Assembly: GCF_000337375.1 (NCBI RefSeq)
Contig: NZ_AOJG01000018.1
Location: 6,278-70,277, forward strand
DNA length: 64,000 bases
From: Halorubrum lipolyticum DSM 21995
GTDB lineage: Archaea > Halobacteriota > Halobacteria > Halobacteriales > Haloferacaceae
Reading direction: 5' to 3'
Positions 1 through 54,217 of this stretch are shown here, one piece after another. Under the pieces are notes generated by a model, which was not told the DNA's origin, ran no database searches, and was given only the letters and a program-made list of their open reading frames with translations. The position numbers and the translations under genes were made by a program. Position 1 is the stretch's first letter. The number at the start of each line of letters is the position of its first letter.

Positions 1-215
1 CGGTGCGGGGTGGGACTCAAAGGGGCAGTCGCGATTCCCGCGAGCAACGCGAGCGGGAAGACGGGAGACAACGTCTCCCGGAAGGACGACGCAGGTGACG
101 TAAGCACCGCAGCGAGCAACGCGAGCGAGGAGCGCAGCGAACGTGCGCCGTCCTCGCGACTGGGGCTTTGGAGGTGTTCTCCGTCGATCCGCAGTCAATC
201 ACTTATAAACAAACC
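1..215 (+). repeat. Dispersed hairpin-rich repeat, copy 1 (cut by window start)
   Basis: Non-coding element sharing its left core GGGACTCAAAGGGGCAG (12-28) and right core CTGGGGCTTTGGAGGTGTTC (160-179) with copies near 38782-38908 (same strand) and 53510-53635 (opposite strand). Between the cores lie short inverted repeats, for example CGGGAGAC-AAC-GTCTCCCG at 62-80, and a stem whose arms are CCCGC and GCGGG around 37-57. The right end runs into a CACTTATAAA box near 200-210. Short open frames across it (one antisense at 17-202) look like chance ORFs. The remaining stretch to 336 carries only the topA promoter. Confidence 0.75.
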
Positions 216-10001: not shown

Positions 10002-11729
10002 CTACTCCAGCGAGACCAGGTTCAGGAACGGACCGCCGATAGCGGCGATCTGGAACCCGTTGACGCGGTCGGCGACGCCCCGAAGCTCTTCCGCGTAGTC
10101 CAGGTACACCCACGGGGCCTCATCGTGGGCAACCTGCATCGCCTCGTTGTACAGGCTCGCGCGCTCGCTCTCGTCGGTCGTCTGTTGACCCTGCTCGACG
10201 AGGTCCATGTACTCCTGGTTCGCCCACGCCGAGCGGTTACTGGTGTTGTACCCCTCGGCGTCGAAGCTCACCCAGTCCTGGTCCTCGGTGAGCTCGCCCT
10301 CGTCGACCTGCGGGTGAAGCAGTACGTACGCGAAGTTGTCCGGGTCGGCGTTGTCGGTGTACCAGCCGAGGAAACACGCGTCGTGGCGGCCCTGGGCCGT
10401 GTACTCGAGGAACGGCGAGAACGACTGCTGGTTGATCTCGACCTCGATCCCGATCTCGCCGAGGTTGGACGCGACCGTCTCGGCCGTCTGGATCGGCGAG
10501 GGATTGTACCCGCGGGGGTTCTGGAACGTCGCCAGCTCGAAGGAGAACCCGTCGCCGTAGCCGGCCTCCTCGAGGAGGCTCTGCGCCTCCTCGGGATCGT
10601 ACGGGTACGGGTCGATGTCGTCGTTGTGCCCCATCACGTTCGGCGGCAGCGGCTGGCTGGCCTGCGTCGCGAAACCGGAGTAGAGCTGGTTGACGATCGC
10701 CTCGGTGTTGATCGCGTGGCTGACGGCCTGCCGGACGCGGCGGTCCTGGAACTCCTCGACCGCCGCGATGTTGAACGCCATGTAGCCGATGTTGATCCCC
10801 TCGGTACGGACGAGCTCGGCGCCGTCCGCGCCGTCGACCTGCTGGGAGGACTGCGCGCCGATGCCGTCGATGATGTCGAGCTCCCCGCTCGCGAGCGACT
10901 GCGCACGGGTGGAGTTCTCGCCGACCGTGACGAAGACGGCCTCGTCGACCTCCGGGCCGTCGCCCCAGTAGTCGTCGTACGCGATGAGACGGATCTGCTC
11001 GTTAGAGTCGTCGAGGGTGTCGAGCTCGAACGGCCCGGTCCCGACCGCGTTCTCCGAGAGGTCGGTGCCGTACTCCTCGATCGCGGCCTCGGAGTGGACG
11101 GAGGCTGCGAACATCGCCAGGTTGCGCAGGAACGGCGCGTACGTTTGCGTGAGCTGGATCGTCAGCTCGTAGTCCCCATCGACCTGGATCTCGTCGATCC
11201 AGTTGCCGAGCGTGAAGGGACCGTACGCGGAGACGTAGTCGTCGCCAGCGTAGTGCTCGTACTCCGAGTCGACGAAGCGGCGGTACGTCGCCACGAAGTC
11301 CTGTGCGGTGAACTCCTCGCCGTTGTGGAAGGTGACGCCCTCCTTCAGCGTGAGCGACGCCGTCTCGCCCTCGATCGAGTAGTCGGAGGCGAGCCCGTCG
11401 GTGAGCGTCGACTCGCCCGGCTCGAAGTTGATGAGCGTGTCGTAGATCTGCTCGGTGACCTTCGCGACCTCACCGCTCGTGCTGTTCTGGAAGTCCAGCG
11501 TCGACGAGTGGCTCCCCCGGCCGTACCGGAGGAGGCTGGTGTCGTCGTCGCCGTCGGAGCCGTCCGACCCGTCGGAGCCGTCCGACCCATCGGAACCGTC
11601 CGACCCGTCAGAGCCGTCCGACCCGTCGCCGCCATCGTCGGAACAGCCGGCGAGACCGACCGTCACTGCGGCGCCACCGGCGGCACCGAGGAACCTTCTC
11701 CGTGAAACGTTCGTGTCGCGGGATGACAT
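10002..11729 (-). CDS. dppA: Tat-exported lipoprotein, peptide ABC transporter substrate-binding protein
   Basis: A 575-residue extracytoplasmic solute-binding protein (SBP family 5). The N-terminus has a twin-arginine signal (SRRRFLGAAGG) and a lipobox LAGC with Cys29 as the lipid-anchored residue, as usual for haloarchaeal binding proteins. A flexible Ser-Asp-Gly linker of about 30 residues, encoded by 18-bp tandem repeats, tethers the binding domain. SBP_5 motifs include FTAQDFVATYRRF and a C-terminal YNEAMQVAHDEAPWVYLDY. It has its own TATA-like box (GTTTATACTG) 28 nt upstream, so the abundant binding protein can be made in excess of the pore and ATPase. Confidence 0.94.
   Translation of the reverse strand: MSSRDTNVSRRRFLGAAGGAAVTVGLAGCSDDGGDGSDGSDGSDGSDGSDGSDGSDGSDGDDDTSLLRYGRGSHSSTLDFQNSTSGEVAKVTEQIYDTLINFEPGESTLTDGLASDYSIEGETASLTLKEGVTFHNGEEFTAQDFVATYRRFVDSEYEHYAGDDYVSAYGPFTLGNWIDEIQVDGDYELTIQLTQTYAPFLRNLAMFAASVHSEAAIEEYGTDLSENAVGTGPFELDTLDDSNEQIRLIAYDDYWGDGPEVDEAVFVTVGENSTRAQSLASGELDIIDGIGAQSSQQVDGADGAELVRTEGINIGYMAFNIAAVEEFQDRRVRQAVSHAINTEAIVNQLYSGFATQASQPLPPNVMGHNDDIDPYPYDPEEAQSLLEEAGYGDGFSFELATFQNPRGYNPSPIQTAETVASNLGEIGIEVEINQQSFSPFLEYTAQGRHDACFLGWYTDNADPDNFAYVLLHPQVDEGELTEDQDWVSFDAEGYNTSNRSAWANQEYMDLVEQGQQTTDESERASLYNEAMQVAHDEAPWVYLDYAEELRGVADRVNGFQIAAIGGPFLNLVSLE
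11556..11630 (-). repeat. 18-bp tandem repeats encoding the Ser-Asp-Gly linker
   Basis: Four or so imperfect copies of an 18-bp unit (on the plus strand GTCCGACCCGTCGGAGCC) encode the SDGSDG linker of the binding lipoprotein. Copies differ at silent positions, so the amino acid pattern is kept while the DNA drifts. Such repeats can change linker length by slippage. Confidence 0.8.
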
Positions 11730-38439: not shown

Positions 38440-38970
38440 AACAGTCGTGAGCGACTGCGACGATAGTTTATAAATGAACGAGGCGGTGGCGCGCGCCTCC
38501 GAGCGGTCGCCGTCGGCGACCGCGAGGAGCGCCGCGCGAGGTCGCCGTCGGCGACCGCGAGGAGCGCCGCGCGAGGTCGCCGGCGCTGCGCGCCGGCTGC
38601 CAGAGGGACCTCTGGTCCCTCGCTGGAGTCGGGCGGCCGGAGCGAAGCGGAGGCCGGCCGACGAGGCTGGGGAGGCGTGAGGTGCGGTTGCGGTCCCGCG
38701 AACGCAGTGAGCGGGAGCACGGAAGTCGCAGCCCGCGCAGCGAAGCGAGCAGGAACGTCTTCCGGTGGTGCTGTGAGGGGAGGGACTCAAAGGGGCAGTC
38801 GCGAGGGCGCCGCAGGCGACGCTAGCACTGGAGGGAGCGAGCAACGCGAGCGACTGAAGCGCACAGCGAGCGTGCGGCGGCCTCGTGGCTGGGGCTTTGG
38901 AGGTGTTCACCGCCGACCCGCGATCGACTGCTTAGAAGCGAGCGGCTGGGGCTTTCGAAGGAGTTCACCG
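38440..38970 (+). repeat. Dispersed hairpin-rich repeat, copy 2, with upstream hairpin array
   Basis: Gene-free. After two TATAAA-type boxes (38434 and 38469) come a string of near-perfect hairpins and the shared element. Homology to copy 3 begins with a long stem-loop at 38628-38663 and the following block CGAGGCTGGGGAGG, and includes the left core GGGACTCAAAGGGGCAG at 38782-38798 and the right core at 38889-38908. A second, decayed right core lies at 38946-38970. Open frames here on both strands are low complexity and look like chance ORFs. The flanks 38314-38440 and 38970-39050 show only a T-tract and nothing else. Confidence 0.75.
38506..38580 (+). repeat. 35-bp tandem duplication containing a perfect hairpin
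   Basis: Two exact 35-bp units (38506-38540 and 38541-38575) plus the beginning of a third. Each unit contains GGTCGCC-GTC-GGCGACC or part of it, so the array folds into repeated stem-loops. Further 8-bp perfect stems with 3-nt loops follow at about 38579-38597 (GCCGGCGC/GCGCCGGC) and 38603-38621 (GAGGGACC/GGTCCCTC). Confidence 0.8.
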
Positions 38971-39050
38971 CGCCGTCGACGGCGTATGTACGGCCGCCTG
39001 CAACGCTCCGGGTTCAGTGAGAAACGCGCTCCCCCGATCACCGACCCGAT

Positions 39051-53344: not shown

Positions 53345-53720
53345 CCGTTTTAAATTACGGCCGCTCGCTCATAAACAGTCGCCGACGAATCGACCAAGAA
53401 CACCGCCAAAGCCCAGTCACTCTTTTATAAATAATCGACCGATATCGGTGGTGAACACCACCAAATTTCCAGTCACTCACTTATAAATAGCCAAATTCGG
53501 ATCGACGGAGAACACCACCAAAGCCCCAGCCGCGAGAGCTCGGTGCGCTCGCTGCGGTCCTCGGCGCTCACTCCGTTCGCGCCTGCGGTCCTTGCGTCGC
53601 GCGCCGTCGCCCTCGCGGCTGCCCCTTTGAGTCCCGCACCGCACGGCAACCGCACCTCACACCTCCCCAGCCTCGTCGGTGGTCCTCCGCTTCGCTCCGG
53701 ACCACCGACTCCCTCGCGCG
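53345..53720 (-). repeat. Dispersed hairpin-rich repeat, copy 3 (inverted), with tandem right-end units
   Basis: Reverse-strand copy. The left core is at 53619-53635 (plus-strand CTGCCCCTTTGAGTCCC) and the right core at 53510-53529. The long stem-loop at 53674-53709 has a perfect 11-bp stem. Beyond the right core the end unit is repeated about three times with a 57-60 bp period (53354-53413, 53415-53470, 53471-53527), each with an ATAAA-type box (TTATAAATA in two) and a GAACACCRCCAAA motif. No credible gene lies inside it. Confidence 0.75.
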
Positions 53721-53834
53721 GTGCTGTTCGCGCCCGCTGGACGCTCACAGGCACGCGCCGGCCACATCACCGATCCACCTCTAGCGGGTTATTTGTCTCC
53801 TGTCCTGAGTCGATCGCGAACGAGTCAGATGAAT

Positions 53835-54195
53835 TGACATCCTCTCCGCCCTGAAGGGCGAAGATTCCCACGGCACCGCACCGCTGGGTTGGGATGGTTA
53901 CGGTTTGTAGCTGCCTTGATGACGGCTACTGGCTGTGTCAATCAGCCGTTACTCCTATCCCGCCATGGGATTCGGAGGTACTTCTTACTGTACCCGAACA
54001 CTACAACAGAAAGGGTGCTTTCTGTGTGTGATCGGGAATCCCGATATTGTCCGATTAGGCGGGCGGATAGACCGCCTCGGCTAGCTTTCAGTAGGACAAC
54101 TGCTTACTTAAAACATCCGGACAGGAGTTCGTGTTTAGTGTAGAGAACTGTCGGATTCATCCCCGCGCTGAAGCGCGAGGCTTTCTCCTCGATTC
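53835..54195 (-). mobile_element. Non-autonomous IS200/IS605-type element (MITE/PATE-like), no transposase
   Basis: About 360 bp bounded by the paired subterminal hairpins typical of IS200/IS605 ends: CGCCCT-GA-AGGGCG (53847-53860) and CGCGCT-GA-AGCGCG (54164-54177). Outside them lie TTGACATCCTCTCC and GATTCATCCCCG, common in haloarchaeal members. No tnpA or tnpB frame is left. Inside are more stem-loops: 53922-53949, CAGAAAG/CTTTCTG at 54007-54024, ATCGGG/CCCGAT at 54031-54045 and GGCGG/CCGCC at 54062-54076. GC content is clearly lower than the surroundings. The exact insertion borders are not fixed. Confidence 0.7.
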
Positions 54196-54217
54196 TCCGT
54201 AAGCGAGTAAACCCAAT

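Follow-up and report, generated by a model that had tools for sequence, protein, structure and literature searches.

Does the 36-nt block at positions 38628-38663 of the window (the whole 64,000-nt stretch of Halorubrum lipolyticum DSM 21995 DNA that was analysed) form a hairpin whose fold is under selection? The original prediction compared it with a second block on the opposite strand, and proposed that an invariant 13-nt loop was kept while the stem around it was rebuilt. The feature is part of something far larger and older than is visible in the window. The hairpin, named H1 here, is one domain of a larger intergenic non-coding element of about 200-430 nt. A covariance model of the 3' domain of this element, R1, gave exactly three matches in the 64-kb window, which are the known copies. 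Their parts are as follows.

63..174 (+): 3' domain P3 of copy 1 (model R1, 70 bits); the remainder of the copy precedes the window start
38467..38474 (+): putative TATA-like TTTATAAA box, near-fixed in the family at -11 to -15 before GCGGTGGCGCG
38483..38576 (+): 5' block GCGGTGGCGCG and hairpin P2 (GCGCG..TCC-GA-GCGGTCG..CGACCGC-GA-GGA..CGCGC) of copy 2, partly duplicated here
38577..38625 (+): two-hairpin insertion module (TCGCCGGC..GCCGGCTGCCAGAG..CTCGCTG); other copies carry this module type in a different helix
38628..38663 (+): hairpin H1 of copy 2, an 11-bp stem with one G·G, a GGA/GGA internal mismatch, GC/GC and a GAA triloop
38662..38682 (+): block B2 of copy 2 (CGAGGCTGGGGAGGYGTGAGG), conserved and probably unpaired
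38694..38769 (+): second insertion module, hairpins around AAGTCGCAGCCCGCGCAGCGAAGCGAGCAGGAACGTCTT, with relatives in Halorussus, Halomicrobium and strain DL31 plasmids
38782..38903 (+): 3' domain P3 of copy 2 (GGGACTCAAAGGGG...GGGGCTTTGG; model R1, 117.8 bits)
38904..38990 (+): 3' tail repeat (GGAGGTGTTCACC..TTAGAAG..CTGGGGCTTT), a partial tandem copy of the element end
53515..53635 (-): 3' domain P3 of copy 3 (model R1, 113.9 bits)
53655..53675 (-): block B2 of copy 3
53674..53709 (-): hairpin H1 of copy 3, a perfect 11-bp stem with the same 13-nt apical part as copy 2
53712..53760 (-): 5' block and hairpin P2 of copy 3

Hairpin H1 and the architecture of the element

The H1 block of copy 2 reads GTCGGGCGGCC-GGAGCGAAGCGGA-GGCCGGCCGAC(G), and that of copy 3, the reverse complement of 53674-53709, reads GTCGGTGGTCC-GGAGCGAAGCGGA-GGACCACCGAC(G). 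Both 36-nt blocks align without gaps around the common 13-mer GGAGCGAAGCGGA, located at 38639-38651 in copy 2 and 53686-53698 in copy 3. The stem comparison of the original prediction is correct: the 11-bp stem of copy 3 is perfect, and the six stem differences of copy 2 lie at positions 6, 7 and 9 and their partners. Two pairs are compensated, G-C to C-G and T-A to G-C, and a third T-A became a G·G mismatch. Folding z-scores of the two window hairpins were -5.75 and -4.03 as RNA and -4.93 and -3.63 as DNA. The description of the 13-mer as a loop does not hold. GGAGCGAAGCGGA itself folds into a GGA/GGA mismatch, a 2-bp GC/GC helix and a GAA triloop, a mini-hairpin predicted by RNA and DNA folding alike.

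Nor is this apical part invariant. Among 175 element copies gathered from the genome of the window and its relatives, 126 hairpins were parsed at the H1 position, and 44 of these belong to a 35-nt class. The exact GGAGCGAAGCGGA is present in only 15 of the 126, GGAGCAACGCGGA in 12 and an inverted core (TCCGCTTCGCTCC) in 2; the rest differ or were replaced outright. Many copies have an unrelated hairpin at this position, for example GCTGGCGCC-GTC-GGCGCCAGC or CGCGGTGAGCGCTC-GAA-GAGCGCGAACCGCG. One copy (GGAACAACGTGGA) carries a compensated pair within the GC/GC helix of the supposed loop. Inverted segments between intact arms were observed for the H1 core in loci L022 and L030 and for the whole 3' hairpin body in L033, as is expected from recombination between the arms or a cruciform.

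In the complete element, the parts follow in the order TTATAA box, GCGGTGGCGCG, P2, H1, CGAGGCTGGGGAGGYGTGAGG, G-rich stretch, 3' domain (GGGACTCAAAGGGG...GGGGCTTTGGAGG) and tail. The signature of the 3' domain is GGACT-SAAAGGGG...GGGGCTTT. In its inner part, helices of 2 bp are separated by tandem GA/GA mismatches, and the tip is a triloop. Two-hairpin modules are inserted in several helices of the element, two of them in window copy 2. The tail may recur in tandem with a period of ~57 bp, and in the family another TTATAA is found in the 3' tail region at about +43. Some Halorubrum copies (e.g., L004, L037, L072 and L163) have related inverted sequences on both flanks (TGATCGATAGCGGGAGTRGGT...; TGATCGATAGCGGGAGT...), which carry TATTTAAA/TTATAA boxes. 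Conserved unpaired G-tracts (CTGGGGAGG, AAAGGGGCAG, CTGGGGCTTT) are located within 38650-38903 of the window and in all copies. They could form a G-quadruplex or a G·G core, which the molar potassium inside the cells would favour.

Distribution and genomic sites

The genome of the window (3.4 Mb) has 95 matches to a conserved block of the element with one mismatch allowed, and holds about 90 copies. Of the 53 genomes that represent the genus, 49 contain the exact 14-mer of this block, with 1-147 occurrences per genome; outside the genus it is almost absent. A genus-specific repeat, as suggested by the 14-mer, was overturned by the covariance model and by relatives with GACTGAAAGGG...GGGCTTTC on plasmids of Halobaculum, Haloarcula, Halorussus, Halomicrobium and others. 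Model R1 matched 225 of 292 Halobacteria genomes and 63 of 77 genera (E <= 0.001). Fourteen non-Halorubrum genomes contained 4-80 matches each (E <= 1e-6). A scan of 84,980 species had only haloarchaea among the matches listed. An exact class-wide pattern with a gap of 40-70 was too narrow for the ~90-nt body. IMG/VR viral contigs had no exact match to two core patterns, a phage collection had none either and plasmids had few, so a virus- or plasmid-borne repeat was rejected. A known RNA family was likewise rejected: Rfam had no match in the window at gathering thresholds, nothing plausible for copy 2 at E <= 5, and none at E <= 1 for five loci of other genera. A literature search by motif and keyword found no description; the 224-RNA survey of Weinberg et al. 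lay outside that search and may hold an earlier report.

Copy 2 is located between convergent genes, one for an HpcH/HpaI aldolase and one without Pfam identification. At the orthologous site, at least 8 species have the element in the same orientation, one has it inverted, and in others it is absent or rearranged. Even between close species, hairpins were replaced wholesale while the linkers were retained. The copy 3 site behaves in the same way. Whole-hairpin replacement at orthologous sites indicates a contribution of recombination or gene conversion among copies. The rebuilt stem of the original prediction is thus right in part: point compensation was seen, but much of the variation within Halorubrum is replacement of whole hairpins. 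No clean empty/filled junction was found, and filled and empty orthologous sites are too diverged for the reading of a target-site duplication.

One site outside Halorubrum is constant. A unit between a NucS_N-like gene and the tRNA-splicing endonuclease gene endA keeps place and orientation across several families. Units at the endA site have compensated stems, such as CTTCCGGGCTCGGC, CTTCCGGGCTGGAC and CTTGCGCCCTCGGC with matching 3' arms. Loci with a unit downstream of the NucS_N-like gene are L335 (1502-1621), L340, L432, L454 and L461; the next gene is endA wherever it was identified. Apart from this orthologous site, 222 flanking proteins revealed neither a recurrent gene family nor a transposase-like cluster.

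In the genome of the window, 33 copies are in convergent gaps, 23 in tandem gaps (9 sense, 14 antisense) and 8 in divergent gaps, the pattern expected if repeats are tolerated where promoters are distant. Outside Halorubrum, gap types are even, and singles in tandem gaps are weakly sense-biased (22:11 and 21:16 in two counts). A replication-strand bias was suggestive by eye in one genome and then not significant as orientation clustering (p 0.11). Single units dominate over doublets in Halorubrum. Among adjacent unit pairs outside the genus, 24 of 25 are arranged head-to-head with a spacing of mostly 30-38 nt. Such pairs (L336-L358, L403-L420) have a TTGGCCAA-like centre.

Covariation and the folded strand

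A covariance model with a covariation analysis had been suggested as a check, and covariation is strong in H1, in the 3' domain and in a class-wide 13-bp helix. In 34 distinct 35-nt copies of H1, structure exceeds chance: the 13 pairs are 98.4% formed, and slid controls drop to 21-52%. Both sides changed in 8 of the 13 pairs (0/500 shuffles), and double-changed cells numbered 43 versus 10.0 +/- 2.7 in shuffles (0/500). For the 3' domain, 20 sequences, two of them from other genera, had 96.7% of cells paired over 28 pairs. Changes on both sides occurred in 20 of the 28 pairs, with 10.9 in shuffles (0/500), and the covariation score was 0.43 in comparison to 0.14 in shuffles and about 0.05 in slides.

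Since the shuffle control ignores the relatedness of copies, an arm-swap test was added, which pairs the 5' arm of one copy with the 3' arm of another. In 99 Halorubrum copies, pairing reached 79% within a copy and 61% after the swap. The 13-bp helix of 190 non-Halorubrum units was 97.4% paired; swapped partners reached 57.7%, with a maximum of 60.1% in 200 shuffles. Almost all positions of this helix show at least three Watson-Crick types in the 190 units. A chance palindrome is ruled out by the covariation in H1, the 3' domain and these units.

The mismatches identify the folded strand. Mismatch asymmetry over all chance helices (flank 3) was too noisy, and true helices were used instead. 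In symmetric H1 hairpins, 2x2 mismatches are GA/GA in 12 cases and TC/TC in none, hence only one strand is the folded one. Selection on RNA or cruciform structure had been proposed. The fold and not the sequence is kept, on one strand; a plain cruciform fits poorly, because the conserved purine mismatches (GA/GA, GGA/GGA and GGG/GGG) and the GNA loops are on one strand only. There is good support for selection on a single strand in its folded form.

What is established is a multi-copy fold that is specific to one strand, deeply conserved and strongly covarying, and that is absent from Rfam. The non-coding family is Halobacteria-wide, and its plus strand, as a single strand, folds into stacked rods of short Watson-Crick helices. 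G·A mismatches in tandem, an internal loop rich in G·G and triloops of the GNA type also belong to these rods.

Whether this strand is RNA or single-stranded DNA is addressed by wobble pairs and loops, and neither is decisive. Wobble pairs outnumber A·C mismatches by 15:6 in Halorubrum (p 0.08) and by 17:6 outside it (p 0.035). Pooled, G·U to A·C is 32:12 in distinct contexts (p 0.004), and G·T is likewise the milder mismatch in DNA. This tolerance of G·U favours RNA. The apical loops favour DNA: outside Halorubrum, 163 of 182 are triloops, and 121 of these are GNA, mostly closed by C-G. The loops d(cGNAg) and d(cGNNAg) are exceptionally stable in DNA, and structured RNAs favour GNRA and UUCG tetraloops. 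The converse loop argument was used by Weinberg et al. to call STAXI an RNA (PMC2864571).

A proposed dispersed repeat and its rivals

The preferred reading, with a probability of about 50%, is that the elements are dispersed, structure-recognised and non-autonomous repeats similar to REPINs. By analogy with bacterial REPINs or mitochondrial double-hairpin elements, they would spread and persist without encoding their own mobility. A host- or transposon-encoded factor may recognise the folded strand, which would leave the stem sequence free and constrain the fold. Whole hairpins would be exchanged between copies by ectopic gene conversion and by inversions of the cruciform type. Dispersal is suggested by the occurrence in 49 of 53 genus and 225 of 292 class genomes, with up to 75-80 copies in other genera, and by elements that are present, absent or inverted at orthologous sites. 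The inverted doublets (24/25), the few copies in divergent gaps (8) and the lack of a recurrent flanking gene point in the same direction. The strong covariation and the strand-specific GA/GA mismatches are further arguments for the preferred reading. The constant endA site with its compensated stems counts against it and resembles a maintained function more than mobility. Dispersal is also weakened by the lack of a transposase partner, a target-site duplication, a clean junction and matches in IMG/VR and phages, by the few plasmid matches, by the G·U excess, which leans to RNA, and by the orientation clustering at p 0.11.

REPINs are dispersed intergenic hairpins with inverted doublets, compensatory stem changes and a single-strand fold (PMC3116915). 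The haloarchaeal element shares these four properties. REPINs, however, are short palindromes, whereas the element forms multi-domain units of about 115-430 nt that are present vertically class-wide. REPINs have a RAYT partner, and none is among the 222 flanking proteins. The REPIN GTAG/CGTC foot is absent from the invariant or nearly invariant columns of the element, as read by eye. Mitochondrial DHE/RHE are pairs of intergenic hairpins with stems that differ by complementary substitutions (PMC2800124). They resemble the two-hairpin insertion modules, but the haloarchaeal modules are inserted in helices that belong to a larger, conserved scaffold, and they reside in archaeal chromosomes.

The main rival of the REPIN-like repeat is a large multi-copy class of structured non-coding RNA of Halobacteria that was amplified in Halorubrum. 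It is possible, though the less probable of the two. The candidate transcript would start from its own TATA-like box or lie in a 3' UTR, and might serve, for instance, to bind proteins or to mark transcript ends. This agrees with the G·U excess, the near-fixed TTATAA before the element, the sense excess of singles in tandem gaps outside Halorubrum, and the unit downstream of the NucS_N-like gene, kept over several families with compensated helices. Transcription starts are expected about 26 nt downstream of a TATA-like box, which would place the start inside hairpin P2. An RNA class is further disfavoured by the mostly GNA triloops in place of GNRA/UUCG tetraloops, by 9 sense versus 14 antisense tandem sites in Halorubrum and by the about 30 nt left for two promoters in head-to-head pairs. 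OLE, GOLLD and ROOL RNAs are similarly long and composed of several domains, with unpaired blocks that are conserved and helices that vary. The element differs in its tens of copies per genome, its triloops instead of tetraloops and the lack of an Rfam match.

Derivatives of IS200/IS605-type transposons, in which a Y1 transposase reads hairpins in single-stranded DNA, are improbable. The strand-specific hairpins and stable DNA-type loops of the element would fit. In Haloquadratum, a relative, PATEs are abundant, heterogeneous and transposase-free palindromic repeats, and MITEs and SMRs of H. walsbyi are of this kind as well (PMC3119063). All of these have near-terminal palindromes or ITRs and are tied to IS605 or other transposons, whereas the palindromes of the present fold occupy the whole element, for which no parent transposon was found. 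No transposase is tied to any copy among the 222 flanking proteins, and several sites have old copies that are orthologous between genomes. Beside copy 3, at 53840-53900 (-) of the window, CCGCCCTGAAGGGCGAAGATTCCCAC may resemble an IS1341/IS605-type end. Similarly improbable is a mutational artefact, in which template switching or hairpin repair in replication perfects palindromes and compensates without selection: whole-arm inversions exist (L022 and L030 H1 core, L033 3' hairpin body) and hairpins are replaced as units, but correction would erase the internal GA/GA, GGA/GGA and GGG/GGG mismatches that persist at fixed places, helix length stays near 13 bp across genera, unpaired blocks are conserved class-wide, and a strand-symmetric process does not match strand-asymmetric mismatches.

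The family may tentatively be viewed as an undescribed, class-wide group of large modular folded nucleic-acid elements: either ornate RNAs of a new class or a device made of single-stranded DNA. Its helices would form a zipper rich in G·A, with triloops of the DNA type and a core of G·G that suits potassium at molar concentration. It would evolve by swapping of whole hairpin domains among dozens of copies per genome. If true, most haloarchaeal genomes hold many copies of a strongly conserved fold that is absent from Rfam and from the literature found by the search. Around a hundred paralogues per genome that share one fold and exchange helices would then provide an unusually clean natural experiment on compensatory evolution. 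Tractable haloarchaea would allow direct tests of RNA versus single-stranded DNA, of binders and of the effect of copy removal.

Two other features of the window were observed. A tandem array of a 9-bp unit (CCGTCGGAG / CCGTCCGAC) is located within a reading frame at 11542-11636. At 54160-54202 (-), a stretch of ~43 nt recurs at 95-100% identity in almost every genome of the genus, frequently with several occurrences in one genome.
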